This document shows positions 2,583 to 24,231 of a DNA stretch of 64,000 bases, piece after piece. How positions within the stretch are numbered: the stretch's first letter is position 1; every line of letters begins with the position of its first letter. Under the pieces are notes generated by a model that saw nothing but the letters and a program-made list of their open reading frames with translations, was not told the DNA's origin and did no database searches. The translations under genes were made by a program, and so were the position numbers. The stretch is from Paludisphaera borealis. GTDB lineage: Bacteria > Planctomycetota > Planctomycetia > Isosphaerales > Isosphaeraceae. The stretch covers positions 7,006,001 through 7,070,000 of the forward strand of contig NZ_CP019082.1 in assembly GCF_001956985.1 (NCBI RefSeq), written 5' to 3'.

Positions 2583-2681
2583 TGGCGGGAGCGTATGGGA
2601 ATCGAACCCACCAGGGGTCGCTTTCACGATCCCTCATCGGTTTTGAAGACCGAGGGCGGCACCAGCCGGCCACACGCTCCC
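2583..2681 (-). tRNA. selC: tRNA-Sec (selenocysteine), anticodon UCA
   Basis: The minus strand folds into a selenocysteine tRNA. It has an 8-bp acceptor stem (GGGAGCGT at 2681-2674 with ACGCTCCC at 2594-2587), a long D arm (GGCCGGCTGGTGCCGCC), anticodon loop CTTCAAA with anticodon TCA at 2646-2644, a long variable arm, T arm GGTTCGATTCC, discriminator G and an encoded CCA (2585-2583). The 8-bp acceptor, UCA anticodon and 99-nt length separate it from tRNA-Ser and suppressor tRNAs. It implies that the organism inserts selenocysteine at UGA; selA, selB and selD are not in this window. Its 5' half is repeated at 24188-24231. Confidence 0.95.
2638..2681 (+). other. attachment-site repeat, left copy, inside selC
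   Basis: These 44 bases (the 5' half of selC through the anticodon stem-loop) recur in the same orientation at 24188-24231 with a single difference (A at 2653, G at 24203). A long direct repeat of part of a tRNA gene flanking accessory DNA is the signature of site-specific integration. The integrase remnant at 3145-3288 lies just inside this copy, the usual position. Confidence 0.8.
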
Positions 2682-2827
2682 AAACTTAATCTCAGAAACA
2701 ACTTAAGGTTAAAGCGGATTTCCGGCGGCCCTGAAAGCCCACGAACGCCGGTTTGAACCTGAGTGCACTGGGATTCCGTCTCGGCGTACTCATGTTCCTT
2801 TTCTAACAACCGGCGGGGCGATCGGCT

Positions 2828-3208
2828 ATGGCCACGCAGGAGGACGGGCTCTGATTCGGCGAGGCCGGCGGCAAGCCCCGTCGTTACGGCAAGGTCGGAG
2901 TCGTCGCCTTCGACGACGCCCAGCGGGCCTTCATCGCCGACCTGGCGGCCCGCCCGGCGGCCGGCAATCCGGCGCTCAAACCGCCGCTCCAAGACGTCGC
3001 CACCATCGACCTCATGATCGACTTCTTGAAGAGGGTCCAGGAGCACCGTGGGCAGCGGGCTTACGACCACCGCCACCCGGACCTGACCCGCTATCCACGT
3101 CGGCCCCAAACGTCCGGCGGCGTCGGTGACGAAGAGGCACATGACTGCTTCAAGCCGGCGTGGACGTGTTCAGGGTCGCCACGATGTCGGGCAACAGCGT
3201 TGACGTGA
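2828..3208 (+). pseudogene. unidentified ORF with in-frame TGA next to selC
   Basis: An ATG at 2828 opens a frame interrupted by TGA at 2852 and then open to 3208. The downstream part (RYGKVGVVAFDDAQRAFIAD, then DLMIDFLKRVQEHRG) looks like real protein up to about 3090, after which composition suggests a frame change. It may be the N-terminal part of the integrase whose C-terminus follows in another frame, but no motif proves this. No family was recognised. Confidence 0.35.
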
Positions 3209-3288
3209 TCGAATCTACATGCGGCCACCTTCGGGCGGAAGACTTCCAGGCAGCGGTGAAGATGCTGGACGAGTTGCGGCGGGAATGA
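3145..3288 (+). pseudogene. tyrosine recombinase (integrase) C-terminal remnant
   Basis: Reading in the frame of 3145, the product begins LLQAGVDVFRVATMSGNS and continues VDVIESTCGHLRAEDF, ending at TGA 3286-3288. This matches box II of tyrosine recombinases: a hydrophobic AGVD segment, a (L/M)(S/G)GxS element, then (T)-Y-GHL. At the place of the catalytic tyrosine the codon is TGC (Cys), and the frame is closed upstream by TGA at 3142-3144, where homologues commonly have Trp. No box I Arg-His-x-x-Arg is readable upstream. It lies within 500 bp of the att site, as expected for the element's own integrase, but cannot be functional as read. Confidence 0.55.
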
Positions 3289-3654
3289 CGGCAGTGGGAT
3301 TCGCTGCTCAGAAAAGCCGCCATGGGCATCTTGACCAGGCCCCACAACTCATCGCCCTCGGGGGCGAACGCCTTGGCCGACGTCAAGAAACTCGATGGTG
3401 AGGGAGCCCGATATGGTCGGCCGGCTCCGGGCCGTCTACGTGGCGCCTCGGGGCTCTGCGCCCCGAGGTCGCCGACCCCGAGGTGATCAAGTCGGTCTGT
3501 GCCGCCCCTTACTCCTACCGCGAGAACAGCGTCATCATTAAATAGAATCCGTCTCACGGCTGGAAAGGTTGCTGATCGTGATCGCCTGCCTCTGCCCGAC
3601 GGTCATCGATCGAGTATTCTATACCGATAGGCCGATGGTCGAAGGCTCCGAACT
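3289..3654. other. gap with coding debris
   Basis: About 365 bases without an intact gene. A short open stretch on the plus strand ends with PEVADPEVIKSVCAAPYSY and stops at TAG 3543-3545, and looks like the C-terminus of a lost gene of unknown family. The same stretch contains a GC-rich inverted sequence around 3450-3480. No promoter or terminator could be assigned. Confidence 0.4.
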
Positions 3655-4260
3655 ATGACAAGATCCGATCCGATACCGCCAAGTCCACCATTGCTCGACG
3701 GGGAGAACCCCACCGTGACCTCCGACGAAGACGCCCGCCCGATCGATCCCCAGGTCCGCATCGGCCACGTCCACCTGAAGGTCGCCGATCTGGAGCGGTC
3801 GCTCCGGTTCTACTGCGGCGTCCTGGGTTTCCAGGTCACGCAAAGGTATGGAACGCAGGCGGCGTTCGTGTCCGCAGGCGGCTATCATCACCACATCGGG
3901 CTGAACACCTGGGAGAGCCTCGGCGGGTCGCCGCCGCCTGTCGGGGCCACGGGGCTCTACCATGTCGCCATCCTCTATCCCGACCGGAGGACGCTCGCCG
4001 ACGCCCTCCGGCGTCTCATCGCCGCAGCCGTCCCGCTCGACGGGGCCAGCGATCACGGCGTCAGCGAGGCGCTCTACCTGCGTGACCCGGACCATAACGG
4101 GGTGGAACTTTACTGGGATCGACCGCAAGAACTGTGGCCACGTACGGCAGCGGGAGAGTTGGCGATGTTCACACGTCGGCTCGACCTCGACGGTTTGCTG
4201 AACGAGGTCGAAGCGGAAGCGACCGCCCCTGAAGTCGAAGAGGGACCACGAGATTTGTAG
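3655..4260 (+). CDS. VOC family protein (glyoxalase/extradiol dioxygenase-like)
   Basis: A 201-residue protein with two beta-alpha-beta-beta-beta modules of the vicinal oxygen chelate fold. Putative metal ligands are the His of IGHVHLKVADLERS (about residue 40), the His of LYHVAILYPD (about 103) and the Glu of NGVELYWDRPQELW (about 148), preceded by RDPDHNG, which is typical of CatE-like dioxygenases. The YHHHIGLNTW segment is also characteristic of that group. The 30-residue lead before RIGHVHL is unconserved in appearance, so the start could be internal. First intact cargo gene of the island; substrate unknown. Confidence 0.85.
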   Translation: MTRSDPIPPSPPLLDGENPTVTSDEDARPIDPQVRIGHVHLKVADLERSLRFYCGVLGFQVTQRYGTQAAFVSAGGYHHHIGLNTWESLGGSPPPVGATGLYHVAILYPDRRTLADALRRLIAAAVPLDGASDHGVSEALYLRDPDHNGVELYWDRPQELWPRTAAGELAMFTRRLDLDGLLNEVEAEATAPEVEEGPRDL

Positions 4261-4313
4261 GCCGGTTCCCCGCCCAAGGCTGTTCCGCCACATTTACGAC
4301 TCGGTGAACCCTG

Positions 4314-4823
4314 TTGATCTTCCGCCTCTCCCACAAGCTGAACTCGAAGATCAAGGCCGGGCCGCTCCCCACCCGACCCCTCGCCGAGAATCCGTTGGCG
4401 GACTGGTCGTCGCATCTGTTCGTCGCCGACCGGACGCAGTACATCCTCCTGAGCAACACCAAGTCGCTCTACTCGACCGTGACGTACGGCAAGGGGATCA
4501 CGGACGACGCACGATTCATCGAGCGAGCCCTGAGCAGCCTGCGGGAATCCATGGAGGACGACGGTCAGGCGTTCGTCCACCGACGCTTCATCGCCCCGGC
4601 GAGCGGCACGATCCGGTTCGCCAGGGCGTTCGATCGTTCCGTCACGGGTTCGATGAACGAATTGATCGTCCAAGCGACGGCCCTGCTGGGCGAGGGCGAG
4701 CTTTCGCCGTTCGACGTCGGATTCCGGCTCAACGACGTCCTGCTCTCGGCGCTTGCTGGGAGCGGAAAGAAGTATGGCACGCCACGAGAGGCGTTCAAGA
4801 GCATGACCAGCGGTTTCGAGTGA
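4314..4823 (+). CDS. DUF6933-like protein
   Basis: A 169-residue protein beginning MIFRLSHKLNSKIK, then NPLADWSSHLFVADRTQYIL and LLSNTKSLYSTV. This is the pattern of a small family of unknown function (DUF6933, from memory) found in bacterial accessory DNA. No catalytic motif, membrane segment or signal peptide is visible. Same strand as the VOC gene and 53 bases after it. The 3' end converges on a minus-strand gene at 4863. Confidence 0.7.
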   Translation: MIFRLSHKLNSKIKAGPLPTRPLAENPLADWSSHLFVADRTQYILLSNTKSLYSTVTYGKGITDDARFIERALSSLRESMEDDGQAFVHRRFIAPASGTIRFARAFDRSVTGSMNELIVQATALLGEGELSPFDVGFRLNDVLLSALAGSGKKYGTPREAFKSMTSGFE

Positions 4824-5384: not shown

Positions 5385-5391
5385 GCGATCC

Positions 5392-5934
5392 CTATGTCTT
5401 GGTCACGTATTCGGGCGGCACGGCGTCCGTCAGCCACACGCCGTTGGCCGACAGGAAGAACTCGTGGCCGTCCCGATGCATCCGCCCGGCATCGACCGTC
5501 AGGACCACCGGCCCGCCCCGCCTGGCACCGACCTTCCTGGCGGTCTCGAAGTCCTTCGAGAGGTGGACGTGATGCCGCTTCCCCTTGTTCAGGCCCACGG
5601 ACAGGATCGACGGCAGGAACCGATCGACCGTCCCGTGATAGAGCACCTCGGGGGGCTCTCGCTCCTCAAGTTGCAGGTCCACCTCGACGCTGTGCCCCTG
5701 GCTGGCCCGGATCACGTCGCCGGTCTCGTCGAACGAGTATCGCCTCTTGTCGTTCGTCTCGACGCACTCGACCAGTTCGTCATAGGTGATCGGGAATCCG
5801 TTTTCCCCGGCGGCCCTAAGGAGGTCGTCCACCGCCACCCATCCGCCGGGCTGGAGCGTCAGGCCGATTTCGCTGGGGGCGTGCCGCAGGTGCTTCGCCA
5901 GGTACTTGCTGACCTTCGTCGATCTCGGCGACAT
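5392..5934 (-). CDS. kptA: RNA 2'-phosphotransferase (Tpt1/KptA family)
   Basis: A 180-residue cytoplasmic enzyme of normal family length. KptA/Tpt1 transfers an internal 2'-phosphate from RNA to NAD+, giving ADP-ribose 1'',2''-cyclic phosphate. The N-terminal winged-helix lobe has KYLAKHLRHAP (R17, H18) and GWVAVDDLL. The NAD-binding lobe has RASQGHS (residues 76-82), YHGT (99-102) and HHVHLS (121-126), the Arg-His-Arg-type active-site set of the family. It appears intact, unlike many neighbours. Its bacterial substrate is generally unknown; carriage on an island suggests RNA repair or ADP-ribose metabolism, which is inference. Confidence 0.93.
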   Translation of the reverse strand: MSPRSTKVSKYLAKHLRHAPSEIGLTLQPGGWVAVDDLLRAAGENGFPITYDELVECVETNDKRRYSFDETGDVIRASQGHSVEVDLQLEEREPPEVLYHGTVDRFLPSILSVGLNKGKRHHVHLSKDFETARKVGARRGGPVVLTVDAGRMHRDGHEFFLSANGVWLTDAVPPEYVTKT

Positions 5935-6060: not shown

Positions 6061-6726
6061 TCACCTCGAATACCGGCCCATCAACTCTCCTTGGGCGAGG
6101 ACGTGGCCCTTGATCGAGCGGAGTACGTCCTGCCTCGTCGCCTTCGGTCCAAGGCCCAGTTCAGCGTCGAGGGCGAAGAGGTGGAAGACGTAGCGGTGCG
6201 TCCCGCTCGGTGGACAGGGGCCGCCGTATCCGGTCTTCTTGAAGTCGTTCTTGCCCTGAAGAGCGGTCTCCCCGCCCGCCGCCACCGTGACCCGCTCGTG
6301 GGCCGGCACACCCTCATTGAGTCCTCTGACGCTGGCGGGGACGTCGAAGATCACCCAATGCGTCCAGGTCCCCCTGGGGGCGTCGGGGTCCTCGACGACC
6401 AGGGCCAGGGACTTGGCGGCGTCCGGAACGCCGGACCACTCCAGCGGGGGCGAGACGTCCTTGCCGTCGCACGTGTACACCTTCGGGATGGCCCCGCCGT
6501 CGGCGAAGGCCGGGCTCTGGAGGAGGATGGTGTTCATCTTCGGGTCCTTGTGCAGGATCGACTCGGTGGGTGGAATGCGACCGCAGGACGTGAGGGCGGC
6601 GAGCAGGACCGGCAGGCCGAGCAGAGACCGAAATACGGCGGTGACGCTCTTCGGATGGCGCAGCCCTCGGCGCCCATCGACGGTGAGCTTGCCCGCCTCG
6701 TTGCCGACCGTACGGGGCCGACTCAT
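6061..6726 (-). CDS. YbhB/YbcL family PEBP-like lipoprotein
   Basis: A 221-residue protein of the phosphatidylethanolamine-binding (Raf kinase inhibitor-like) family. The fold signature is clear: PKVYTCDGKDVSPPLEWSGV, then LALVVEDPDAPRGTWTHWV, and PPSGTHRYVFHLFALDAEL. An N-terminal hydrophobic run ending LLAALTSCG forms a lipobox, so the product is probably a lipoprotein outside the inner membrane; the start could be one of several codons before it. Immediately downstream of osmC on the same strand (26-base gap), likely one transcript. Confidence 0.9.
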   Translation of the reverse strand: MSRPRTVGNEAGKLTVDGRRGLRHPKSVTAVFRSLLGLPVLLAALTSCGRIPPTESILHKDPKMNTILLQSPAFADGGAIPKVYTCDGKDVSPPLEWSGVPDAAKSLALVVEDPDAPRGTWTHWVIFDVPASVRGLNEGVPAHERVTVAAGGETALQGKNDFKKTGYGGPCPPSGTHRYVFHLFALDAELGLGPKATRQDVLRSIKGHVLAQGELMGRYSR

Positions 6727-6752: not shown

Positions 6753-7202
6753 TTATTGCGGCTCCACGACGATCTCGGTCTTCACCGAGTTGGCGATGAA
6801 GCAGGCGTGGTGGGCCTGGTCGTGGAGTTGCCGGAGTTCCTCGGGACCGGGCGTTTTCTCACCACTGAAACTCACCTGGGGCATGAGTGTCACTCGGGTG
6901 ATCGCCAGCCGCCCCCCAGCGTCCTTCTCCAGGACGCCGACCGCCTCGTCGTGGTAGGCGTCCACGACGTACTTCCTCCGGGCGGCGACCGCCAGGAAGG
7001 TGAGCATATGGCAACTCGATAGGCTGGCGACGAACGCCTCCTCGGGATCGACGCACGACTCACTGCCCAGGTAGGCGGGAGCGGCCGAGGCCCGGACGGT
7101 GACACCCGCATCGAACGACCAGTCGTGGTCCCGGTTGTACGTCTGGTAGGCGAAGTCCGGCGTCTCTCGTTTCCAATCGATCGTGGCCTTGTGTTCCGAC
7201 AT
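6753..7202 (-). CDS. OsmC family peroxiredoxin-like protein
   Basis: A 149-residue OsmC/Ohr-family protein. The two redox cysteines are in LSSCHMLTFLAVA (about residue 62) and HHACFIANSV (about 133), spaced as in the family, with ESCVDPEEAFVASL before the first. These proteins reduce organic hydroperoxides in the cytoplasm. The start ATG at 7202 begins MSEHKATIDWKRET, a family-like opening. It is divergent from the gene at 7373; the 170 bases between probably hold both promoters. Confidence 0.92.
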   Translation of the reverse strand: MSEHKATIDWKRETPDFAYQTYNRDHDWSFDAGVTVRASAAPAYLGSESCVDPEEAFVASLSSCHMLTFLAVAARRKYVVDAYHDEAVGVLEKDAGGRLAITRVTLMPQVSFSGEKTPGPEELRQLHDQAHHACFIANSVKTEIVVEPQ

Positions 7203-8327: not shown

Positions 8328-8648
8328 ATGGGCCAGATCAGCGACGAACTCATCAAGCGACTGGGCCGGGGCCGGAACCTGGCCGACGAGCATCGCCATG
8401 AGGCCGGCTCGATCCAGGCCGCTCTCGACGCTCTCAAGAACAGTGCGATCATCATTCGACTTTCTCCTGTGGTCGCCCTCGACCCACTGCACGTCGTCTA
8501 CGTGGCCCTCCAGAACGTCACGTCCGTCTTCGCCGGGCGGGTCAGCCGGTTCCCCGAGTTCAAACCCTATTACCAGTCGGCGGCCGAGGCCGAAAGTGAG
8601 CACATGCCGGGCGGCCAGGCGAGGAGTCGCCTTTCCCAGAGAAGGTGA
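8328..8648 (+). CDS. small hypothetical protein
   Basis: A 106-residue ORF starting MGQISDELIKRLGRGRNLAD, with a helical, moderately hydrophobic middle (SAIIIRLSPVVALDPLHVV). No family recognised. The last 25 residues overlap the convergent gene at 8570 and look out of character, so the true end may have been altered by a nearby rearrangement. Confidence 0.4.
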   Translation: MGQISDELIKRLGRGRNLADEHRHEAGSIQAALDALKNSAIIIRLSPVVALDPLHVVYVALQNVTSVFAGRVSRFPEFKPYYQSAAEAESEHMPGGQARSRLSQRR

Positions 8649-9241
8649 GCACGGTCCCCAACCTCGCCCAAGGTCACGAATACGCCGTCGGGCAAGTCGT
8701 CCATCTTTGCCTTGAAGGTCCGCTTCGAGCGGCCGGGGCCGACCCGCTCCGCATGAAGGCGTTCGTCGATCGAAGCCGCTGTGGGGCGTATCGTCCCGAG
8801 GTTGTTGGGATTCCCGGCAGCCCAGGCGTCAACGAAGGCGTTGTACGACTTCCGTCGGCACTCGAAGCAGGGTTGATGTCCGGCGGCCAGGCCTGTCGCC
8901 TCGTCGAGGAAGAAAAGCTCCGTGTAACGGTCCGGGGCCACGACGACCCGACGCCGCCCGTTGAACTCCAGGCGGCAGAGGAGCCACCGCTTGACCTGCC
9001 AGGGCTGATGGATCTGCCTACCGGCGTCGTGCAGCCGGCTCCGGTCGCCCATCATCGTGCCCCGCTCCGGGACAACGACGATCTCTCCGCGGATCGTCCC
9101 CGAGTCGTCCACCAGGCCCTTGGAGAGCACCTCGCCCAAGTCGCCGTAGGGGAAGCCCTCGCCGAACGTGCCGGCTTCGAGCGCCCGCAACAACTCGGTC
9201 CTTCGGTCGGGCCTCACCCTGGCCTCCAGGAGATAACGCAT
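8570..9241 (-). CDS. chimeric ORF: YciI/muconolactone-like N-terminus joined to a conserved accessory protein
   Basis: A 223-residue ORF that appears to join two unrelated proteins. Residues 1-51 (MRYLLEARVRPDRRTELLRA to KGLVDDSGTIR) resemble the start of a small dimeric alpha-beta barrel protein. From GEIVVVPERGTMMGDRSRLH onward the sequence matches, from memory, a conserved family with WQVKRWLLCRLEFNGR, YTELFFLDEATGLAAGHQP and CFECRRKSYNAF. The Cys-x-x-Cys of CFEC could bind metal. The join at about base 9088 is in frame. Either a deletion fused two genes or the fusion is a true new protein. Confidence 0.5.
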   Translation of the reverse strand: MRYLLEARVRPDRRTELLRALEAGTFGEGFPYGDLGEVLSKGLVDDSGTIRGEIVVVPERGTMMGDRSRLHDAGRQIHQPWQVKRWLLCRLEFNGRRRVVVAPDRYTELFFLDEATGLAAGHQPCFECRRKSYNAFVDAWAAGNPNNLGTIRPTAASIDERLHAERVGPGRSKRTFKAKMDDLPDGVFVTLGEVGDRAHLLWERRLLAWPPGMCSLSASAADW

Positions 9242-9300: not shown

Positions 9301-9774
9301 TTATCGTCCGACCGACCCATGGCCCGCCCCCTCCCTCTCGATCCGTTCACGGATGAACGCCGAATAGGCGTCCTTCATCGGCAATTCGGAGTCATGGGAG
9401 ATCCGCCGACGCCGGGCGACCACTCGCTCCCCGGTCACGGGGTTCTCGCCGGGTCGCTCGAACTCCTCGGCTACCATGACCCAGCCCGCCTCACCCGGCC
9501 ACCAGAGCCCCGAGACTTCCTCGGCCTTGAGACGACGGCGTCATCGCAGGTTCGAGGTGCCCGGCGAACGGAGGACGACTCTCCCGGCGTACCGATACGG
9601 CGACGACACGAGCGTCGAGCCGCTCATCCTCCGCAAGATTTCTTTCAAGGCGTCCGGGAGCCCGACGTCGAACTTGGTCGGGAGTATCGACTCGACTTGA
9701 ACCTCTACTACGAGGATCGGCCCAATCGGTTCCCTCCACGCCGCCCGACGAGTAGGATGCCGTGAGGTATGCAC
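9301..9774 (-). pseudogene. unidentified gene with one in-frame TGA
   Basis: From a possible GTG at 9774 the frame reads PIGPILVVEVQVESILPTKF, then LPDALKEILRRMSGSTLV, meets TGA at 9543-9541, and continues without frame change as RRRLKAEEVSGLWWPGEAGW and VMVAEEFERPGENPVTGERV to TAA at 9303-9301. Both parts look like genuine coding sequence of one protein of about 157 residues. The family is unknown. The TGA follows CGA and may have arisen from TGG or CGA. Divergent from the gene at 9769, with which its 5' end overlaps, so the true start may be a little later. Confidence 0.5.
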
Positions 9775-10710
9775 GACCAAGCCGGGGGAAACACCATGCG
9801 ACCTTCGCCTAACTTCCTCGCCCTCATCCTCCTCTCGTCCCCGCTCCACGCCCACGCCCAGGACCGGGACGCCAAGGTCCGCAACGACCGCCAGGCGTTC
9901 GGGGCGTCGAGGGATTGGATCTATAATGACCTGGATGAGGGACTCTGGGCCGCCAAGGGATCGAACAAGCCGCTGCTGGTCGTCTTCCGCCGATCCGACT
10001 GGCAATCCATTACGGAGACGGGCTTGAACACCGACGACACGACCTGGACTTTCGCCCCCGGCCCGACCCCGAATACGGTCCGGGCCTCGGAGGGCAAGAT
10101 CCTCACCGCCCCGGGAGGCTGGATTCTCCTGCCGCCCGGGGACGCCGGACTGACCCGCCGGGTCAAGGCCGCCGGCGACCACTGGATCGTCCGGGAGAAG
10201 GTGGGCCGGAGGATGTTCTCACGGGGAGTCTGGGCGGCGTCGGCGACCATCGACCGGATTCGGGCCGAACTGGAGGCCGAGCGGTCCACCGAGGGCTACG
10301 CAAAGAAGCAGGAGGCCGCCGCCCGGCGTCGTGGAACGGCCCAGGCCGAGTACGTCGAGGACTTCCACGGTGCGGTGTTGGCGTTCCTGGCATTCCATTC
10401 GAGCCACGCCGAACTCGCCGGACGGCTGGCAAGAGCCGTCGCCGATCACGCCACGCCGGTCGGGAGCGGCACGGTCGCCAGGACGAAGCGAATCCCCGTC
10501 GAGCAGAGGGCCGAGGCCGCCGTCGTCGCCTGGATGCGTCATCAGACGACCGGCTACGACGGGATGACGATCCCGAAGGCCAAGGGCGAGCGGCGGGAGG
10601 TCCGCAGGATGCTGGCACGGCGATCGCAGGAGTTGTTGCAGCGGTATCGCCACGGGGAGCCGATCGGGGATGATTGTCCTCTGAGGCGGGCGTTGGCGGT
10701 CGAGGACTGA
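9769..10710 (+). CDS. chimeric ORF: thioredoxin-like secreted N-terminus joined to DUF2293
   Basis: A 313-residue ORF. Residues 1-32 form a signal peptide (FLALILLSSPLHAHAQ), and residues to about 75 (DWIYNDLDEGLWAAKGSNKP then LLVVFR) match the start of a secreted thioredoxin-like family in which a CxxC motif should follow; it does not. Instead the frame runs into DUF2293: WILLPPGDAGLTRRVKAAGD, then VREKVGRRMFSRGVW, VGSGTVARTKRIPVEQRAEA and AVVAWMRHQTTGYD, ending CPLRRALAVED. DUF2293 proteins are normally cytoplasmic, so the fused signal peptide is odd. A start inside the DUF2293 part is possible if expressed. Confidence 0.6.
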   Translation: MHDQAGGNTMRPSPNFLALILLSSPLHAHAQDRDAKVRNDRQAFGASRDWIYNDLDEGLWAAKGSNKPLLVVFRRSDWQSITETGLNTDDTTWTFAPGPTPNTVRASEGKILTAPGGWILLPPGDAGLTRRVKAAGDHWIVREKVGRRMFSRGVWAASATIDRIRAELEAERSTEGYAKKQEAAARRRGTAQAEYVEDFHGAVLAFLAFHSSHAELAGRLARAVADHATPVGSGTVARTKRIPVEQRAEAAVVAWMRHQTTGYDGMTIPKAKGERREVRRMLARRSQELLQRYRHGEPIGDDCPLRRALAVED

Positions 10711-10741: not shown

Positions 10742-11108
10742 ATGGCGGGCGAGCATTTCTTGGATCGGATACTCCACGGGCCGGCCCCGCGGGTGAGGTC
10801 ACGGCCCGGTCCCTGTTCGGAGGGCACGGGCTCTACTGGGGGGGACGATCTTCGGCGTCCTGTTCCGGGGCCGGCTCTACCTGAAGGTGGACGAGCAGTC
10901 GAAGTACGACTACGAATCCAGGGGCATGGAGCCGTTCCGCCCGAACGAGCGGCGGGCGCTCAAGTCCTATTGCGAGGTGCCGCCGGACGTCCTCGCCGCC
11001 CCCGATGCCCTGTCGTCCTGGGGCGAGGAGGCTGTCCGGGCCATCCTGGTTCGCCGACGTGGGCCTCGGAGGAGGCGGGAACCCGTTAACCATGGGTCAG
11101 GAGGGTGA
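10742..11108 (+). pseudogene. TfoX N-terminal domain protein, frameshifted
   Basis: The product must be read in three frames. It starts MAGEHFLDRILHGPAP, shifts near 10790 to EVTARSLFGGHGLYWGG, then after a G7 run (10838-10844) to TIFGVLFRGRLYLKVDEQSK and SYCEVPPDVLAAPDALSSWG. This is a TfoX N-terminal domain (FGGxGLY, LYLKVDE, YxEVP). Adding one G to the G7 run restores the second junction. As written it is not translatable into one protein. The end overlaps the start of the next gene. Confidence 0.7.
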
Positions 11109-13905: not shown

Positions 13906-16071
13906 ATGATGGATCAACTCGCCGAGTCCGCCGCAGGGGTCGACGATAACGATCAGCCCGAACCGGGCGACGCCGACGGTTTCATCGAGCGGGGCGTCGC
14001 CCGTCTGGACGGGCGGGAACCGGGCCTGGCCGTCGAGGACTTCGACGCCGCCGTCCGCCTCGACCCGGCCGACTCGAAAGCTTACTTCAACCGAGGCAGG
14101 GCCCGGCTGGCCCTGGGCGATTACGCCCTGGCGATCCGGGACTTCGACGAGGCGCTTCGGCTGGCGCCCGAGAACGCCTACGCCCTCTCTTTTCGGGCGG
14201 CCGCCCGCCATCACCAGGGCGACGATTCCGGGGCCTTCGCCGATTACGATCGGGCCATCGCCCTCAGCCCGGGGGCGGCCTCGCTTTACTGCGGCCGAGG
14301 CGCCTTGCTGCACTCCCTGGAGGATTACCGGGCCGCCGTCGCCGACTATACCAGGGCCATCGCCCTCGAGCCGAACGCCGCCGAAGCCTATCGCAGCCGG
14401 GGCCTGGCCCGGTACGCCGATGACGACTGGACGGCGGCGATCGCCGACTTCTCCGAGGCGATCCGGCTCCGACCCGAAGACGCCCGCATCTACCTGCACC
14501 GGGCCTATGCCCGGCAGGCCGCCGAGGACGACGAGGGCACCCTCGCCGACTACGGCGAAGCCCTCCGGCTCGACCCGAAGCTCGCCGATGCATACCGGGG
14601 CCGTGCCGGAATTCTGGAGGCGCTGGGCCGGGACGAGGAAGCCGACGCCGACCACGAAAAGGCCGAGCGGCTTGATGACGAGAAACCTTCAGGAGAGGAC
14701 GCCATGACCGAGCGCACGGCCCAGATCGATGTCTTGATCCGGTCCCACTTCGAGCCGACGCCGTCTGGCGACCTGACGATCACCGAGCGAGTGTTCCCCC
14801 ACCGGGTCCGGGCCGACTTGCAGAGGGCCGTCGATCGGGCCTTCGGCGGCGAGACGACCGTCTCGTTCTTCTGCGGCGTCCGCAAGCGGTACAACCACGA
14901 GGGGATCGGCTTCAACGACCTGTTGATCAAGGACCGCAACGAGCCGGCTGTTCTGGTGCCTCCCATGTACGAGGAGGTCGACGTCGGCGGCGACGAGCCG
15001 GTCCGATGCCTGAAGAACGGCCTGTGGCTTCTCGAAGCCGACGGGGTGCGGTTCGCCGTCTTCCTGGAGCAGCACTCCCACTTCGGGCGCATGGAGCGGC
15101 TGCGGATCCAAGTGGCCACGACCAACGACCCGCCGGGCTTCCAGGTCGCCCAGGGCTTCTTCCGGAGACTGGAGGAAGCGGTCCAGTGCGCCGAGTCGTA
15201 CCGGGGCAAGATCCTCTCGCTGGAGGCCGACGAGCACTACACCGGCCGGTCGTCGGGCGTCCGGGTCCACAAGCTGGCCCACGTCGAGCGGGATCAAGTC
15301 ATCCTGCCGGCCCGGACGCTCGACCTTCTGGAGCGGAACGTGATCCGGTTCGTCGGCCTGCGGCCCCGACTCAACGGGCTCGGCCTTGCGACCAAGAAGG
15401 GGCTGCTGTTCTACGGGCCGCCGGGTACAGGCAAGACGCACACGATCCACTACCTGGCCGCCGCCCTGCCGGGGCACACCACGTTGCTGATCACCGCCGA
15501 GCAGGTCGGGCTGCTGGACGAGTACATGACGCTCGCCCGCCTGCTCCAGCCGAGCGTCGTGGTGATCGAGGACGTGGACCTGATCGCCAGGGACCGCACG
15601 ACGATGGACAGTCCGTGCGAGGAGGTCCTGCTCAACAAGCTCCTGAACGAGATGGACGGGCTGCGGCCCGACGCCGAGATCCTCTTCGTCTTGACGACCA
15701 ACCGGCCCGAGGCACTGGAGTCGGCCCTGGCGTCCAGGCCGGGGCGGGTGGACCAGGTGATCGAGTTCCCGCTGCCCGACGAAGCGGGCCGGGCGAAGCT
15801 GGTGCGGCTCTACGCCAGGGGCATGGAGGTGCCCGAGGACGTGCTCCGGGCGTCGGTGAAACGGACGGAGGGGGTGAGCGCCTCGTTCATCAAGGAGTTG
15901 ATGCGACGGTCCGCCCAATTCCACTTGGAACGGGATGGCTCGGGGTCGCTCGCCCTGGAGGACGTCGAGTCGGCCCTGGACGAACTCCTCTTCAGCGGCG
16001 GCACCCTGAACCGGAAGCTCCTGGGCGGGTTTCTCGGCGAGCCAGGAGCCTCTTGCAGTCCAGGAGCTTGA
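13906..16071 (+). CDS. TPR-repeat / AAA+ ATPase fusion
   Basis: A 721-residue cytoplasmic protein. Residues about 25-255 form seven tetratricopeptide repeats of 34 residues, each with an AxxxRGxAR and DFDxAIxLDPxxA pattern, a protein-interaction scaffold. A middle region (TERTAQIDVLIRSHFEPTPS) follows. The AAA+ core has Walker A GPPGTGKTH near residue 504, Walker B VVVIEDVDLIA near 551, sensor 1 TTNRPE near 598 and an arginine-finger region SRPGRVD near 610, plus a C-terminal lid. The AAA domain resembles FtsH/Vps4-type single-ring ATPases but there is no protease domain. Intact, the largest gene in the island; convergent with a PcfJ-like gene 2 bases away. Confidence 0.85.
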   Translation: MMDQLAESAAGVDDNDQPEPGDADGFIERGVARLDGREPGLAVEDFDAAVRLDPADSKAYFNRGRARLALGDYALAIRDFDEALRLAPENAYALSFRAAARHHQGDDSGAFADYDRAIALSPGAASLYCGRGALLHSLEDYRAAVADYTRAIALEPNAAEAYRSRGLARYADDDWTAAIADFSEAIRLRPEDARIYLHRAYARQAAEDDEGTLADYGEALRLDPKLADAYRGRAGILEALGRDEEADADHEKAERLDDEKPSGEDAMTERTAQIDVLIRSHFEPTPSGDLTITERVFPHRVRADLQRAVDRAFGGETTVSFFCGVRKRYNHEGIGFNDLLIKDRNEPAVLVPPMYEEVDVGGDEPVRCLKNGLWLLEADGVRFAVFLEQHSHFGRMERLRIQVATTNDPPGFQVAQGFFRRLEEAVQCAESYRGKILSLEADEHYTGRSSGVRVHKLAHVERDQVILPARTLDLLERNVIRFVGLRPRLNGLGLATKKGLLFYGPPGTGKTHTIHYLAAALPGHTTLLITAEQVGLLDEYMTLARLLQPSVVVIEDVDLIARDRTTMDSPCEEVLLNKLLNEMDGLRPDAEILFVLTTNRPEALESALASRPGRVDQVIEFPLPDEAGRAKLVRLYARGMEVPEDVLRASVKRTEGVSASFIKELMRRSAQFHLERDGSGSLALEDVESALDELLFSGGTLNRKLLGGFLGEPGASCSPGA

Positions 16072-16072
16072 G

Positions 16073-17299
16073 TCAGCATTCCACCGACAACCCCTGATTC
16101 TTGGCCCATAGCCCCAGGATTTCTCGATCCTTGGGGTTCGGCCCCCAGTTGCAGCATCGTCTGGCCTGCGTCACCTTCCTCGTCGTCGGGTCCACTTCGA
16201 TGGTCAGGACCCGCCGCCGGCCGTCGTGGTCCTCGACGGCCATCGACCAGATCGTGGACCGCCTCCTCGTGCAGAGGTTCGCATAGCCGGCGACGCAATG
16301 GCGCATCGCCCCGCCCTCGGCCCGCAGTGCCCGGCTGCTGAGCAGTTCCCGGATCGTCCAGACCCGGCCGTCCAGCCCGCCGGGTCTCGGTTCGAAGAGT
16401 CGGAACTCTCCGATCCCGCTCCGAGGCCAGCGAAGAACCGGCCTTCCTCGCACGCCCAGATCCCTCCGCCACTCGGCGACCTGTCGCCACAACGCTTTCG
16501 CCGTCCGCCCCTTCATCGAGAGGTCGGGCTGGGGCGGCCTCTCCACCCCCTCGCCGCCGACTTCGTCGAAGCACGTCCGGGGTACGAAGCGCTGGTCATA
16601 AAGGTACTCGATGATCGGATCGACCTGGGCGCTTTCGAGTTCCGGGTGGTTCACGAGGAACCGGACGACCGTGCCCCAGAAATCCTCCGACTCGAACGAA
16701 CGTCCCAGCCGGGTGGCGGCCACCGCTTCGGCGAGCCTCTCGGAACCGCCGAGTCCACGGACCTGCCCCCACCGAAGCGCCTTTTCGACCGAGACGTGGT
16801 CGGGAGCCTGGAGGAACATGTGGGCCATCCGTTTCGTATACGGCAGCGGCAGGTCGGCGCTGCGGATGTTCCCGCCCGAGCCGATGTGCGTGAACCAGCC
16901 TTGCCGGCGTCGAGCTTCGACGGTCGATCCATCGAACCAGACCGACGTGAGAAACGCCGGGACCGAATAGGCTGCCAGCAGGTGCCGGGCCAGCGTCGAG
17001 AACTGCGGCAGCAGGTTTTCTCCCGCAGGCTCCCATGAATCGATCGGTCTGAGCCATTGCGAGTGAAAGGACGCCAGCGACAGAAGACCCGAGAGGATCT
17101 TCTCGCAGCCCTTCGGGTCGTATCGCCTGCCGGCCATCGGAGGACGCAGCAGGTCCGAGCGGCGACGGACGTGCAGAACCAGTCGCTCGAAGGCGGCGCT
17201 GGCGTCAAGGTCCCAGCCGGCGACGACGCCGAGCGCACGGCGGACCGCCTGGTCGACGGCGGCCTTCGCCGTCGGCTTTCGAGGAGAGGTCGGGCGCAT
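16073..17299 (-). CDS. PcfJ domain protein
   Basis: A 408-residue protein of the PcfJ family, named from conjugative plasmid pCF10 and frequent on phages and integrative elements; its role is unknown. The conserved end is visible: LRAEGGAMRHCVAGYANLCT, then IWSMAVEDHDGRRRVLTIEV, TTRKVTQARRCCNWGPNP, and KDREILGLWAKNQGLSVEC. The N-terminal 200 residues are helical with several Trp-rich elements (FEDFWGTVVRFLVNHPELES-like). Its stop lies 2 bases from that of the TPR-AAA+ gene on the other strand. Confidence 0.8.
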   Translation of the reverse strand: MRPTSPRKPTAKAAVDQAVRRALGVVAGWDLDASAAFERLVLHVRRRSDLLRPPMAGRRYDPKGCEKILSGLLSLASFHSQWLRPIDSWEPAGENLLPQFSTLARHLLAAYSVPAFLTSVWFDGSTVEARRRQGWFTHIGSGGNIRSADLPLPYTKRMAHMFLQAPDHVSVEKALRWGQVRGLGGSERLAEAVAATRLGRSFESEDFWGTVVRFLVNHPELESAQVDPIIEYLYDQRFVPRTCFDEVGGEGVERPPQPDLSMKGRTAKALWRQVAEWRRDLGVRGRPVLRWPRSGIGEFRLFEPRPGGLDGRVWTIRELLSSRALRAEGGAMRHCVAGYANLCTRRRSTIWSMAVEDHDGRRRVLTIEVDPTTRKVTQARRCCNWGPNPKDREILGLWAKNQGLSVEC

Positions 17300-18684: not shown

Positions 18685-19107
18685 TCAAGGGCATCGGCGT
18701 CGAGTCCCAGGTGCGGAGCCGTCGTGCAGGCCGGTCAGTTCGACCAGCATACCGATCCCGACGCCCACGGCGTAGCAGGCCAGGTCGCTCCAGAGGAAGC
18801 CGTGGCCCAAGACCAACCCGCCCAAAGTCGTCCGACGGATCGAGTCGATCCACGGGGCGTGGTACAATTGGCTCACCTCGATCATCACCGAGAACGACAT
18901 CGCCAATGCGGCGACCCGCCACGTTGAAGCCCTCGGCAGGAGCAGGCCGATGCCGAGAAAGGTGACGAGCGCCCAGAGCGTATCCCCGGCGTAAGCTGCC
19001 ACGAAGCCGGGCAACGAATGCCCAAAGCGGCGGGAGCCGATCCCCAAGATGGCTGTCAGGGCGATCAAGACAAGCCCGGTGATCGGGTTGCGTGGGGTCT
19101 GCGACAT
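18685..19107 (-). CDS. DUF2809 family membrane protein
   Basis: A 140-residue integral membrane protein with four predicted helices (PITGLVLIALTAILGIGSR, LWALVTFLGIGLLLP, VAALAMSFSVMIEVSQLY, LACYAVGVGIGMLVELTG). The motifs AYAGDTLWAL, IEVSQLYHAPWIDSIRRTTL and GGLVLGHGFLWSDLACYAVG are those of DUF2809, VanZ-like proteins of unknown function. Divergent from the SDR gene; about 75 bases separate the two starts. Confidence 0.85.
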   Translation of the reverse strand: MSQTPRNPITGLVLIALTAILGIGSRRFGHSLPGFVAAYAGDTLWALVTFLGIGLLLPRASTWRVAALAMSFSVMIEVSQLYHAPWIDSIRRTTLGGLVLGHGFLWSDLACYAVGVGIGMLVELTGLHDGSAPGTRRRCP

Positions 19108-19183
19108 CGGCCTTCAAGTCCCCGGCCCGTCTTCGTTATCGTGGTGGGCTCTCTTGACGACCACCAGGATAGAGGACGCCGAC

Positions 19184-19978
19184 ATGGATCTGCAACTCAG
19201 GGGCAAGCGGGCGCTTGTGACGGGCTCGACCGTCGGGATCGGTTTTGCTGCGGCGGCGGGGCTGTACCGGGAGGGGGCCTCCGTCGTCGTCAACGGCCGC
19301 AGCCGGCAGCGAGTCGAGGAGGCCGTCGAGAAGCTCCGTGGCACAAGCGGCGACGGCGAGGTCTCGGGCATCGCCGCCGACCTGTCTACCGCCGAGGGCG
19401 TGAACGATCTGATCCGCCAACTCCCCGAGGTGGACATCTTGGTCAACAACCTCGGCATCTTCGAGCCCAAGCCGTTCGAGGAGATCCCCGACGCCGACTG
19501 GATGCGATTCTTCGAGACCAACGTCCTGAGCGGCGTCCGGCTGACCCGCCACTACCTGCCCGGCATGAAGGCCCGCAACTGGGGTCGTGTGGTCTTCGTC
19601 TCCAGCGAGTCGGCGGTACAGATTCCCGCCGAGATGATCCACTACGGCATGACCAAGACGGCCCAGCTTGCCGTGGCCCGAGGGGTGGCCGAGACGGTCG
19701 CCGGGACCGGCATCACAGTCAACTCGGTGCTGCCCGGCCCGACCGAATCGGAGGGTGTGGCGACGTTTGTGGCCGACCTGGCGAGGCAGAGAGGCGTGGA
19801 CCGTTCGGTCGTCGAGGCCGAGTTCTTCCAGACCGCCCGGCCGAGTTCGCTGATCAAGCGGTTCGCCACGGTCGAGGAGGTGGCGAACATGATCGTTTAC
19901 GTGTGCAGCCCGCTGGCCTCGGCCACCAATGGGGCGGCCCTGAGGGTCGATGGCGGCGTCGTCCGGTCGATCGTCTGA
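19184..19978 (+). CDS. short-chain dehydrogenase/reductase (SDR)
   Basis: A 264-residue classical SDR oxidoreductase. The NAD(P)-binding motif is TGSTVGIG (residues 13-20), followed by VDILVNNLG and the catalytic Ser of VFVSSESAVQ, then Tyr-x-x-x-Lys in HYGMTK. The C-terminus ends GAALRVDGGVVRSIV. VVNGRSR after strand 2 suggests NADP(H) preference. ATG 19184 is chosen over an upstream in-frame start (19049) because the MDLQLRGKRALVTG opening is family-like. Intact island gene, substrate unknown. Confidence 0.9.
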   Translation: MDLQLRGKRALVTGSTVGIGFAAAAGLYREGASVVVNGRSRQRVEEAVEKLRGTSGDGEVSGIAADLSTAEGVNDLIRQLPEVDILVNNLGIFEPKPFEEIPDADWMRFFETNVLSGVRLTRHYLPGMKARNWGRVVFVSSESAVQIPAEMIHYGMTKTAQLAVARGVAETVAGTGITVNSVLPGPTESEGVATFVADLARQRGVDRSVVEAEFFQTARPSSLIKRFATVEEVANMIVYVCSPLASATNGAALRVDGGVVRSIV

Positions 19979-20255: not shown

Positions 20256-20585
20256 ATGCCCGAAATCCTGCACATCACGCCCCGAGCCATGTGGGAACGG
20301 GCCGTCGCCGAGGGCGAGTACCGCAGCCACGACCTGGCGACCGAAGGATTCATCCACTGCTTGACTTCGGAGCAGTTGCCGTACGTCCACGGGAAGTTCT
20401 ATACGGGCCGGACCGAGCTGGTCGTCTTGCTTATCGACGGCGAGAAACTGAAGCCGGCCTTGAAGTGGGAGAATCCTCACGAGACGTGGAAGTTGTTCCC
20501 CCACGTCTACGGACCGATCAATCTGGACGCCGTGGTCGAGGTGGTGCCCCTCGAAGACGCCCGCGGGCGTGGGCTGACGGGATGA
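20256..20585 (+). CDS. DUF952 family protein
   Basis: A 109-residue protein of DUF952, glutathione S-transferase-unrelated small proteins with an ADP-ribosyltransferase-like fold according to family descriptions. Diagnostic segments: ILHITPRAMWERAVAEGEYR, EGFIHCLTSEQL, and LFPHVYGPINLDAVVEVVPL. Intact. Its start overlaps the tail of the YbaK pseudogene region. Confidence 0.88.
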   Translation: MPEILHITPRAMWERAVAEGEYRSHDLATEGFIHCLTSEQLPYVHGKFYTGRTELVVLLIDGEKLKPALKWENPHETWKLFPHVYGPINLDAVVEVVPLEDARGRGLTG

Positions 20586-20665: not shown

Positions 20666-22127
20666 GGGCCGGCAAAAAATCTGGCAAATGCTCATGAGGG
20701 CGCTACGATGTCTGCATGATCACCATCCGTGACCACCAGAGCGGCGACCTTTTCAATCTCTGGAACCATCTCGGTGAACTGCGCCGCCGATTGCTTGAGC
20801 GATCCTGGGCCGGCGTCTTCCCCGAGCACCTCCTGGGACACTTGCCCGTTCGGGAATTGATCGCGGGGTTCTCGCGGGAGCACGGACGCCCGCCCCACCA
20901 AGGACTTCCACCGGCCTTGCACGCCCAGGTCGACTCCGAGTTGGTCCGCAAGCACGTCGACCGCGAGGGGGATGGCCGCTTCGCCTCCACCAAGCCCAGC
21001 GAATCGAGGCGACGACTGCCCGAGGCCGCGGCCGACTTGCTGGTCCTGACGACCCGGTTCCGGCCGACGGCTGCCGAGTTGGAGAGCTTTCTGATCCTCG
21101 CACGCGTGCTGGCTGAGCGATGCGAAGTCGTGCGCGATCCCGAGGCCGGCTCGCGAGTCCGCGTCAAAGAACCCGACGAGATGACGTGCGACAACGTCCT
21201 GAACCCGGCCGACCCGGACGCGACCTACAACAAGCATCGCGGCGTCGGCTATCTGGTCCAGGTCGTGGAAACGTACTCCGACGTCGAAGGAGAGCCGACC
21301 GGAGAGACCAATCCCGATCCGCCGGACTTGATCACGCACGTGGCCGTCGGCCCGATGAACGTCCATGACGGTTCCTCGCTCGGCCCCGCCTTGGCCGACG
21401 CGGAAGCCCGCTCAATCAATCCCAAGGTTGTGTTGGCGGACTCGCATTACGGCTCGAACGAGAATCTTGAGAAGGCGAACCTTCAGGGCGTCGAGGTCGT
21501 CTCCCCCTCGATGCCGCCCAAGGGGAGCGAGCAAGAGAAACTGACGCTGGAACATTTCGAACTCGACGAGGACGGCCGAGTCGTCCGCAGTCCGCTGAGG
21601 CACGCCCCGACGATGACCAGCATCGGCGGGGACAAGATCCAGGTCCTATTCGACGTCACGACCTGCGCGGCGTGTCCCCTTCACCCGTCCTGTTGCGCCT
21701 CGGCGGTGGACCTAAAGAACCCCGCTATCGATACACGCACGACCGCGTTCGTCAGCGAGCGCGGCGACTCGGAGACAAGTCCGACGAATTCCGAGAGGGC
21801 TATCGCTGGCCCTCGGGGATCGAAGGGACGATGTCCCGGTTCAAGCACCAGATGAGGATGGCGTCTCTGCGCATCCGCGGCCGGCGTGCGGTGGGTTACG
21901 TGACCTTCCTTCGCGCCCTCGGTCTGAACATCCATCGGGTCGGGGCCTATAAGGCGGCTTGTTGAGGAAGGTGAGGCTTTTCTCGCTCGTTAAAGAGCCG
22001 TACCAAGCCCTCGGCAACGACCTTGGGGCGCTCAACGCCGTTGAGCCGAAACACAACGCAACTCTCACGTTCAGGCGGGCGCGCCGATAGATCACCCACT
22101 GCGTTCGTTCGTCCCTTTTGCCGGCCC
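20666..22127 (+). mobile_element. IS1182-like insertion sequence, defective
   Basis: The broken transposase at 20716-21965 is bracketed by inverted repeats: GGGCCGGCAAAA at 20666-20677 and its complement at 22116-22127, with weaker similarity just outside (AAAG next to each). Target-site duplication was not resolved. The element is larger at the right (160 bases after the transposase end). Inside the island, near its right end. Confidence 0.6.
20716..21965 (+). pseudogene. IS1182-type DDE transposase, internally deleted and frameshifted
   Basis: The protein begins MITIRDHQSGDLFNLWNHLG and RRLLERSWAGVFPEHLLGHL, as in transposases of the IS1182/DUF772 kind, but after about residue 65 a block of some 150 residues containing the first catalytic Asp is missing. 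It resumes at ALHAQVDSELVRKHVDREGD and DATYNKHRGVGYLVQVVETY (second Asp region KVVLADSHYGS). Near 21715 the frame must change by -1 to give RYRYTHDRVRQRARRL, then GIEGTMSRFKHQMRMASLRI. Two independent defects make it inactive. Confidence 0.8.
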
Positions 22128-22156
22128 GTCAACTTTCGGTTATCGCTCCGCAGTCA

Positions 22157-22462: not shown

Positions 22463-22627
22463 GAGGGGATTCCATCAGCAACTTTCCGACCCTTTCGCCC
22501 ATGGTTATTGAGAAGTTACGCTGTGATGCCGTAAAGGCTCTGGAGGGCAACGGTTGCGGAATGCCCTATGACTCTTGTGCCCGCGTGGCGACAAAAACCC
22601 TCGGCGAAGGACAATTGTCAGCCTGGC

Positions 22628-22655
22628 TTGACAATACGCCGATTCTCTTTATCAT
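22628..22655 (+). promoter_or_regulatory. sigma-70-like promoter
   Basis: TTGACA at 22628-22633 and TATCAT at 22650-22655 with a 16-base spacer match the housekeeping consensus in 11 of 12 positions. It lies about 93 bases before the ATG of the ribbon-helix-helix protein at 22748. Confidence 0.5.
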
Positions 22656-22747
22656 TGTCCATGGATGTCAGACGCGGTCAAGAATTGCGAGTCATTCGAC
22701 TCGCACTTGCCACGGCTCTCTTTCGCGAATTAAACGGGGTGACGCCG

Positions 22748-22927
22748 ATGCCCGAGACCGTGGTTCATTTCCAAATCCGTATGCCGCCTCCCATGCACGA
22801 AACCCTGGCGAGCCGCGCGCGGGCCGAGAAAAGCTCGCTCAACGCCTTGATCGTGTCGCTGCTGTCCCAAGCCGTCGCGAAACAAGAGTCGACAGCGCCG
22901 GCACCCTCGACCGGGGCTGCCTCGTAG
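22748..22927 (+). CDS. small ribbon-helix-helix (Arc/HicB-type) protein
   Basis: A 59-residue ORF starting MPETVVHFQIRMPPPMHETL. A beta strand (VVHFQIRMP) followed by two helices (HETLASRARAEKSSLNALIV, SLLSQAVAKQ) is the Arc/MetJ ribbon-helix-helix DNA-binding arrangement, similar to the C-terminal part of HicB antitoxins. No toxin gene is adjacent. The start is the ATG after a good promoter; longer in-frame starts upstream give unlikely sequence. Confidence 0.65.
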   Translation: MPETVVHFQIRMPPPMHETLASRARAEKSSLNALIVSLLSQAVAKQESTAPAPSTGAAS

Positions 22928-23050
22928 GCTCTCCTATCCGAGCGCTCTTGGTGGCTCGCGGTCTGGCGACGCATCGCTGACGCGACACGCCTCAGGAACT
23001 TCGATCATCCCCGGATCTCCTCGTGTCCCCTTGGTAGCGGACGGCGTCCC

Positions 23051-23779
23051 ATGAACCTATCCGTCCGCGACACGGCCGGCCTCCTGAAGGTCTCCGAGAA
23101 GACGATCTATCGCTGGATCAAGCAGCAGACCATCCCGGCCTACCGGGTCCAGGAACAGTACCGCTTCAACCGGGCGGAGATTCTGGAATGGGCGACGTCT
23201 CGTCGCCTGAACGTCTCCAGTGAGATTTTCGCGGAGCCGGAGGCGGAAGGGCAACCCGTGCCGTCGCTCCTCGATGCGCTGGAAGCCGGCGGGGTTTTCT
23301 ATCGGGTCTCCGGCGACGACAAGGAAGACGCGCTGCGCGAGGCCGTGGAGCTGCTGCGATTGCCGGACGAGGTGGATCGGGAGTTTCTCCTCCGAGTGCT
23401 TCTCGCTCGGGAGGCCATTGCGCCCACGGCGTGCGGCGACGGCGTCGCGATCCCGCACGTAAGAAACCCCATCGTCCTCCACGTCGAGCGTCCGATGGTC
23501 ACGCTCTGCTTTCTCGAGCGGCCGATCGAGTACGGGGCTCTCGACGGGAAACCGGTGGGCACGCTCTTCATGGTCATCAGCCCGACCACGCGGGCCCACC
23601 TGCACCTGATGGCCAAGCTCTCCTTCGTGCTCCGCGACCAGGGCGTACGCCACGCGGTCGAGCGGCAAGAGTCCCGGCTGGAGATCCTCCGCCAGATCGG
23701 CCGTGCGGAACAGGAGCTCGCGCCGTCGGACGTACGGGCCCCTTCAGTGGCCGCGGCCGGCTCGTCGGGATCGGGGTGA
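23051..23779 (+). CDS. MerR/excisionase-type HTH fused to PTS EIIA (Ntr-like) domain
   Basis: A 242-residue protein. Residues 1-55 form an excisionase-family helix-turn-helix (LSVRDTAGLLKVSEKTIYRW, then QEQYRFNRAEILEWA). Residues about 75-220 form a PTS EIIA type-2 domain like PtsN: EREFLLRVLLAREAIAPTA-type sequence leads to GDGVAIPHVRNPIVLHVERP, in which His of IPHVR is the phosphoacceptor position, followed by IEYGALDGKPVGTLFMVISP and HLHLMAKLSFVLRD. Such fusions occur in planctomycetes and delta-proteobacteria and probably act as phosphorylation-responsive regulators. Intact, last gene before the right att repeat. Confidence 0.85.
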   Translation: MNLSVRDTAGLLKVSEKTIYRWIKQQTIPAYRVQEQYRFNRAEILEWATSRRLNVSSEIFAEPEAEGQPVPSLLDALEAGGVFYRVSGDDKEDALREAVELLRLPDEVDREFLLRVLLAREAIAPTACGDGVAIPHVRNPIVLHVERPMVTLCFLERPIEYGALDGKPVGTLFMVISPTTRAHLHLMAKLSFVLRDQGVRHAVERQESRLEILRQIGRAEQELAPSDVRAPSVAAAGSSGSG

Positions 23780-24187
23780 GAGGCGGAGGGATGGGTCGGG
23801 GATTGGCGGTCGTTGAACGGGTCGGGCCGCCTCCAGGCCGTGATCTCAGGAACCAAATTCGTCGGCGGGAAAGGGCGGGCTGAGCCGATCTCGATTCGTC
23901 GCTTCCCTCAAGCTCTAACCTGTCTCAGGAATCGAAGCGGAGGTTCTCAGGAAGTTCCGATCGACTCCGATGTTAGGACGAATCGATAAGTACAAGCGCT
24001 GGATTGAAATTGAGACGGCTCTCAAGTTGAAACAGATTATCCGTAGGCCCCAGAAGTCCTGGAAAACAGATGGATCATCCCACAAACTGCGAATTGAAGC
24101 AAAGTTAGGACGATCCAAGGAAGCCGAGTAACGGAATATTTCCGCCATTAATCCGACATGAGTCGGGATGAAAAATCAGAGGTGCGC
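23780..24187. other. AT-richer gap next to right att repeat
   Basis: About 400 bases whose A+T content is visibly higher than that of the flanks, especially 23930-24180. A minus-strand ORF (24148-23915) has no family resemblance or codon bias and is not called. Lower GC beside an attachment site fits foreign DNA. Confidence 0.5.
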
Positions 24188-24231
24188 CGGTTTTGAAGAC
24201 CGGGGGCGGCACCAGCCGGCCACACGCTCCC
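24188..24231 (-). pseudogene. selC fragment: 5' half through anticodon stem-loop (right att repeat)
   Basis: The minus strand from 24231 reads GGGAGCGTGTGGCCGGC, the D arm, then CCGGTCTTCAAAACCGG, a complete anticodon stem-loop with UCA, and then diverges. It lacks the variable arm, T arm and 3' acceptor strand, so it cannot be a tRNA. It differs from the intact gene in one base, changing a stem pair from U-A to C-G with both sides matched. Confidence 0.85.

Follow-up and report, generated by a model that had tools for sequence, protein, structure and literature searches.

In the planctomycete Paludisphaera borealis, the gene for the selenocysteine transfer RNA (tRNA-Sec), selC, has very probably been entered by a 21.55-kb element carrying a tyrosine integrase, which replaced the 5' half of the gene and whose integrase has since decayed. 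The locus lies within a stretch of 64,000 nucleotides (NCBI RefSeq assembly GCF_001956985.1, contig NZ_CP019082.1, positions 7,006,001 to 7,070,000 of the forward strand), which is referred to here as the window and in which all unprefixed coordinates are given. The island is dead in this genome and is part of a recurrent planctomycete pattern, as displaced selC 5' halves occur in 10 further genomes. An initial annotation of the same DNA had proposed a genomic island in selC, a reading that is supported here; it was silent on both the replacement of the 5' half and the recurrence among planctomycetes.

Both ARAGORN and Rfam call a tRNA-Sec at 2583-2681 on the minus strand (78.8 bits), and a repeat finder reports a direct pair at 2638-2681 and 24188-24231, 44 nt long with 43 of 44 positions identical and with 21,550 nt from start to start. 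These three programs thus confirm the intact selC and the 44-bp direct copy of its 5' half, with one mismatch, that had been annotated. Because selC runs leftwards, the piece held in common is the 5' half of the gene, i.e., tRNA nt 1-44, including the anticodon loop. The copy at 24188-24231 is 95 % identical over 43 nt to the selC 5' half of two relatives, G040 and G043. The other direct repeats there, among the families listed (19 of 45 besides the selC pair), are 18-38 nt long and 65-91 % identical. Base composition was rejected as a mark of foreign origin, there being no contrast between the insert (65.7 % G+C) and its right (66.9 %) and left (69.0 %) flanks.

The genes that flank the island, designated D and A on the left and B and C on the right (Table 1), place the insert within selC itself. 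Gene A and selC are 16 nt apart, and 25 nt separate the displaced half from the stop codon of gene B. In G021, G040 and G043, all from a single different genus within the family, genes A, selC and B are contiguous without cargo, which is the empty site that the initial annotation had suggested seeking in relatives; in G021, moreover, the start of gene C comes after A-selC-B. Gene A also adjoins selC in G009, G018 and G024, as does gene B in G006. When the flanks of the window are joined at the repeat, they give a single 947-bp alignment with G043 that runs through the whole of selC, and with G040 and G021 gene A and selC align as separate pieces. Since both flanks are native, the insert lies within selC; since the native 3' half of the intact gene is still beside gene A, the element must have supplied the 5' half of that gene; and, since the native 5' half stayed beside gene B, the rebuilt gene lost its old upstream sequence. 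The locus therefore shows the features by which tRNA-gene islands are recognized, namely, a tRNA gene and a direct fragment of it at opposite ends, an integrase (here a remnant) at one end, and an empty site in relatives, along with those of a 5'-fragment island, the fragment being the 5' part of the gene, lying upstream of the tRNA and having its end at nt 1.

The integrase remnant that had been annotated at the selC end is real and became apparent only when relatives were compared; two peptides translated from it have no Pfam match. Its C-terminal part shares 50 % identity over 46 aa with the integrase of G202 (E 3e-10) and 46 % with the selC-type integrases of G294 and G333 (E 2e-8 to 3e-8). 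The remnant has lost some 190 residues from its middle and has a cysteine in place of the catalytic tyrosine; it thus lacks a complete catalytic domain with the active-site residues of a tyrosine recombinase, and an intact relative in G005 matches PF00589. The segment at 2828-3285 is therefore a dead tyrosine integrase belonging, with its relatives, to one family. With its integrase decayed, the island is probably fixed in this genome.

A profile built from six intact relatives of this integrase was searched against 397 genomes of the class, 12 of which contain the family at a cut-off of E<=1e-45. In seven of the 12 (G073, G124, G130, G277, G285, G294 and G333), the 5' end of selC faces the start of the integrase gene across a gap of 99-143 nt, compared with 146 nt in the window. 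The integrase of G253 adjoins an intact tRNA-Ser(TGA), again with the 5' end facing, that of G005 adjoins a displaced 3' piece of tRNA-Ser(GCT), those of G202 and G137 are at the 3' end of tRNA-Pro, and the G001 relative has no tRNA beside its start. Of two further relatives, both from other collections, one (L102) lies beside an apparent 3' piece of tRNA-Ser(TGA), and one on a viral contig (L145) lies beside a sequence that is tRNA-Leu-like by eye, scores 31 bits against tRNA-Sec and draws no ARAGORN call. A weak match, G001:C2, was set aside as not being of the closest type, and the tRNA-Ser of G005 was rejected as a 5'-facing target since it is a 3' piece displaced from the tRNA-Ser at C1:28063. 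In a tree, the seven selC integrases and the G253 integrase form a clade with support of 99/99. At these loci, tRNA-Ser(TGA) and tRNA-Sec have almost the same anticodon arm, a likeness that may explain a shift of target between the two genes.

Three of these genomes merit separate description. In G005, a genome of the window's genus, the integrase belongs to a 31.5-kb element of the ordinary 3' type in tRNA-Ser(GCT) (G005:C1:28063-59658; L132:13063 to L071:11658), where it lies beside the displaced piece and not beside the intact gene, which is at the far end. The relative in G001 is accompanied by a 90-bp exact direct repeat (L099:3895-3984 and L100:266-355; G001:C1:509895 and 526266), the site of which is, by eye, protein-coding and not a tRNA. 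In G073, an exact 67-bp copy of the selC 3' part is found 15 kb downstream (L097:14518 and L098:9589; G073:C15:14518-29655), and this second island, which flanks the tRNA on its opposite side, has a different, 523-aa integrase-like open reading frame (ORF) antisense over selC.

Displaced halves were sought in the class with two patterns for the selC 5' half. The stricter one revealed second copies in four of the seven integrase-bearing genomes (G277, G130, G294 and G285), with identity from nt 1 to nt 42/43 and 0-3 nt in common upstream; in the window it matched the fragment and, at that limit, not the intact selC. Searches of the available stretches of the selC contigs of all seven (G073, G124, G130, G277, G285, G294 and G333) revealed no 5' copy. 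The looser pattern matched in 139 of the 397 genomes, 15 of them with two matches by the per-genome tally, and the control pattern read backwards gave 0 in every genome row. Upon inspection, 11 of the 15 were kept, i.e., the window's genome, G009, G028, G130, G211, G217, G268, G277, G285, G294 and G300; G303 was dropped as a contig overlap, G196 and G250 because each has two full-length selC genes, and G091 because it has one selC plus a decayed full-length copy without an ARAGORN call. Both ends are on one contig in six of the 11, with the fragment upstream of selC and on the same strand in every case and with spans of 3.8 kb (G217), 12.7 kb (G300), 16.2 kb (G028), 21.5 kb (window), 24.6 kb (G268) and 28.3 kb (G211). 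The common block starts no more than 5 nt from tRNA nt 1 in all 11. Its other end falls at nt 40-46, at the anticodon loop (nt 34-40) or immediately beyond it, a position that suggests a crossover at that loop. The block is identical in nine, with one mismatch in the window and two in G217. Given that selC 5' halves differ between genera, this identity means either that the elements move mainly among close relatives or that the copies were homogenized afterwards. An integrase or its remnant lies 5' of selC in 11 of 11 cases; thus, a fragment standing without cargo, which the initial annotation had named as evidence against an island, was looked for and did not appear. The integrase frame is oriented towards selC, not away from it, in G268 and G009, and, by eye, the displaced half of G009, G300 and G211 may be part of an adjacent island in a tandem array.

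These data are consistent with a series of events in which a mobile element with a tyrosine integrase would have recombined with selC in the anticodon loop, its attachment site carrying a copy of the tRNA 5' half next to the integrase end. Insertion would then have joined the native 3' half to the element's 5' half, yielding an intact selC behind element DNA, and would have stranded the native 5' half at a distance of 21.5 kb, next to gene B, its original upstream neighbour, with decay of the integrase following. Within this scheme, the exact crossover, the direction of events and the use of an element promoter are what we infer.

A number of observations weigh against this account or narrow it. 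The sole mismatch of the repeat is at tRNA nt 29 (2653 vs 24203), and its pairing partner, nt 45 (2637 vs 24187), differs as well, the pair being T-A in selC and C-G at the fragment; a simple crossover in the loop would have paired C with A before insertion or T with G after it and so implies either mispairing in the ancestor or subsequent changes, a subsequent change being the simplest explanation. The empty site stands in three genomes of another genus, but the five other genomes of the window's own genus that were searched offer no clean one. In all five, genes D, A and C are contiguous, with C directly after A; selC and the island are absent from that locus, and gene B was not found anywhere in these genomes. 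Among the tRNA-Sec loci listed, the only strong match in these five is in G003, and the weaker matches to the tRNA-Sec model that were checked (two in G005 and four of 17 in the window's genome) are tRNA-Ser and tRNA-Leu. The best match of the window's remnant is the integrase of G202, at a tRNA-Pro 3' end, with the selC ones coming next, so that the remnant can be placed in the selC clade only provisionally; and on the tree the selC label requires two changes and is not significantly clustered, 113 of 500 shuffles being as low. The stricter pattern yielded no second copy in three of the seven integrase-bearing genomes (G073, G124 and G333), and the two ends are on different contigs in the other four, the islands of which are therefore not seen whole. 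Since the integrases of G028, G211, G268, G300 and G009 match the family only weakly, several integrase lineages use the selC site, and it may be the site, rather than one integrase, that recurs. Finally, two features of the DNA upstream of selC in relatives, which are described below, are missing from the window: no pair of GGTA motifs is recognizable there, and promoter scans of the spacer at 2682-2827 gave no sigma-70 match.

Three other explanations for the repeat pair can be weighed against the same evidence. That the island is an ordinary one that restores the 3' end, with the 5' half at 24188 being coincidental or secondary, is highly improbable, even though most tRNA islands bring a 3' half (3760 of the 3919 in the overall counts of Islander, with 159 having a 5' fragment; PMC4383910), a selC island with a 67-bp exact 3' copy 15 kb away exists in G073, and relatives of the integrase occur at tRNA 3' ends (G202, G137) or next to a displaced 3' piece of tRNA-Ser (G005, L102). 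Opposing it, what was displaced in the window is nt 1-44, adjoining gene B, the native upstream neighbour; the intact gene adjoins gene A, the native downstream one; and the arrangement recurs in 10 other genomes, in five of which (G130, G277, G285, G294 and G009) the ends are on different contigs. The view that the 5'-half copy is a pseudogene or the product of a segmental duplication, with no site-specific recombination involved, deserves equally little credence: second full-length or decayed selC-like genes do occur in G091, G196 and G250, possibly from mixed assemblies, but the copy is bounded close to nt 1 and to the anticodon loop in 11 of 11 cases, and this, the integrase beside selC and the empty sites in relatives all argue otherwise.

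A composite origin, with the 21.5 kb having accumulated through two or more insertions at selC, is a possible though not a favoured refinement, and is compatible with replacement of the 5' half by an integrase-bearing element. The cargo is mixed and includes insertion sequence (IS) remnants, and the DNA preceding the displaced half looks, on visual comparison, like the DNA preceding the intact selC in G009, G300 and G211, as it would in tandem arrays; on the other hand, the window's genome has only two matches to the selC 5' half and one to the C-terminal part of the integrase remnant.

Replacement of the 5' half has consequences for the DNA that now precedes selC. Two GGTA motifs, 12-13 nt apart and 67-103 nt upstream of selC, are present at seven of seven loci with an intact integrase of this family and at none of 28 other selC loci, the latter being the best-scoring 29 tRNA-Sec loci listed minus that of G073 (L010, moved to the first group) and including G028 and G009, islands with other integrases. 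The motifs could be arm-type integrase sites. A promoter-like TTGAC-17/18-TAnnnT ending 26-27 nt before selC is found in G124, G294 and G073 and, in weaker form, in G217, with 47, 14, 0 and 101 of 200 shuffles being as good for G124, G294, G073 and G217, respectively; promoter-like matches also precede displaced halves, the best being in G294 (10 of 12 positions, 0 of 200 shuffles). To judge by its position, selC would probably be transcribed from element DNA. With most islands in tRNA genes, the tRNA remains under its host promoter; in this case, the front of selC, a gene needed for all selenoproteins, now belongs to the element. We tentatively suggest that planctomycete selC is a standing landing site, its 5' half and upstream sequence being repeatedly replaced, and that selenoprotein synthesis may thereby have come to depend on island-owned DNA. 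If so, excision or re-insertion would switch selC between host and element control. The 11 genomes, of 139 with a recognizable selC 5' half, form a case set for asking whether mobile elements control a tRNA and why selC is the target of this kind of insertion, and intact integrases with defined sites are now at hand for testing.

Enterobacterial selC islands use the 3' end of selC. They resemble the island described here in having selC as target (PMC6174562), as do the Pf-tRNA-Sec prophages, the 27-bp piece of which is, unlike here, the selC 3' end (PMC7549136). Overall, replacement of the 5' half is the rarer polarity for tRNA-gene islands, and bacterial and archaeal precedents are known. The 5'-fragment islands of Islander share a tyrosine integrase, a tRNA-gene target and a displaced 5' fragment upstream of the restored gene; what may set the present island apart is that the target is selC, in planctomycetes, and that the arrangement recurs, with one integrase family mostly at selC. 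In pTN3 of Thermococcus, 41 bp in the 5' half of tRNA-Leu are common to attP and attB, and the rebuilt tRNA is likewise parted from its original promoter (PMC5495485, PMC8371274); unlike the island in the window, pTN3 is archaeal and its integrase gene is split on insertion, the likeness drawn here being one of arrangement. Among the titles and abstract openings of the literature searched, no selC island in a planctomycete was found, and a planctomycete study that treats genomic islands, degenerate tRNA clusters and selenocysteine-insertion genes (PMC4807772) gave, in the portion available, no link between islands and selC.

Table 1. Features of the selC locus, the island and its flanks in the window
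Feature	Position	Strand	Basis
Left flank gene D, RNase D-like by eye	447..1721	+	ORF list; D-A order kept in 5/5 same-genus genomes
Left flank gene A, xylose-isomerase-like TIM barrel	1724..2566	+	Pfam PF01261
selC, intact tRNA-Sec (native 3' half, element-supplied 5' half)	2583..2681	-	ARAGORN, Rfam
Repeat copy 1 (tRNA nt 1-44), integrase-proximal junction	2638..2681	-	Repeat finder; comparison with relatives
Anticodon loop (nt 34-40), inferred crossover segment	2642..2648	-	End of common block, 11 cases
Element-borne spacer, selC 5' end to integrase start, now upstream of selC	2682..2827		Position; comparison with intact relatives
Integrase remnant, N-terminal part, in-frame stop near 2852	2828..3178	+	tblastn with related integrases, E 9e-7 to 1e-3
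Integrase remnant, C-terminal part, other frame	3148..3285	+	Match to G202, G294, G333 integrases
Glyoxalase-family protein	3655..4260	+	PF00903, 2e-16
DUF6933 protein	4314..4823	+	PF22016, 8e-31
RNA 2'-phosphotransferase (Tpt1/KptA)	5392..5934	-	PF01885, 2e-50
PEBP-family protein	6061..6726	-	PF01161, 4e-45
OsmC-like protein	6753..7202	-	PF02566, 4e-15
Match to PADLOC candidate defence model PDC-S40	8570..9241	-	E 2e-59; no Pfam match
DUF2293 protein	9769..10710	+	PF10056, 1e-21
Plasmid pRiA4b ORF-3-like protein	11105..11641	+	PF07929, 2e-21
ATP-grasp (R2K_3)	12834..13505	+	PF14243, 1e-16
TPR + AAA ATPase	13906..16071	+	PF00004, 1e-21; TPR models; PADLOC IetA model, 4e-17
PcfJ-like protein	16073..17299	-	PF14284, 1e-10
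DUF2809 protein	18685..19107	-	PF10990, 1e-31
Short-chain dehydrogenase	19049..19978	+	PF00106, 9e-42
DUF952 protein	20256..20585	+	PF06108, 4e-29
IS remnant, DDE transposase matches in two frames	20716..21965	+	PF01609, 6e-5; PF13751, 2e-7
HTH_17 + PTS EIIA_2 domain protein	23051..23779	+	PF12728, 7e-15; PF00359, 1e-22
Repeat copy 2, displaced native 5' half of selC	24188..24231	-	Repeat finder; G040/G043 match
Right flank gene B	24257..25426	-	ORF; 35-41 % homologue directly 5' of selC in G021, G040, G043, G006
Right flank gene C, CvpA-like	25685..26449	+	PF02674, 7e-17

Between the repeats, 18 of 26 island frames searched have a Pfam match, the cut-off being E<=0.001 in two batches and <=0.1 in a third. 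The mixed nature of these matches, together with the IS remnants, bears out the annotation of the enclosed genes as accessory and partly decayed. Gene B, outside the island, had no match in a Pfam search.

In the window's genome, selA- and selB-like genes are at another place, apart from selC. In G003, by comparison, selC is elsewhere than at the A-C locus, and a tblastx search of its region against the window gave noise; by eye, it forms part of a compact selB-selA-selC-selD cluster (L038:7535-12457, G003:C68), in which selB is also recognized by profile.

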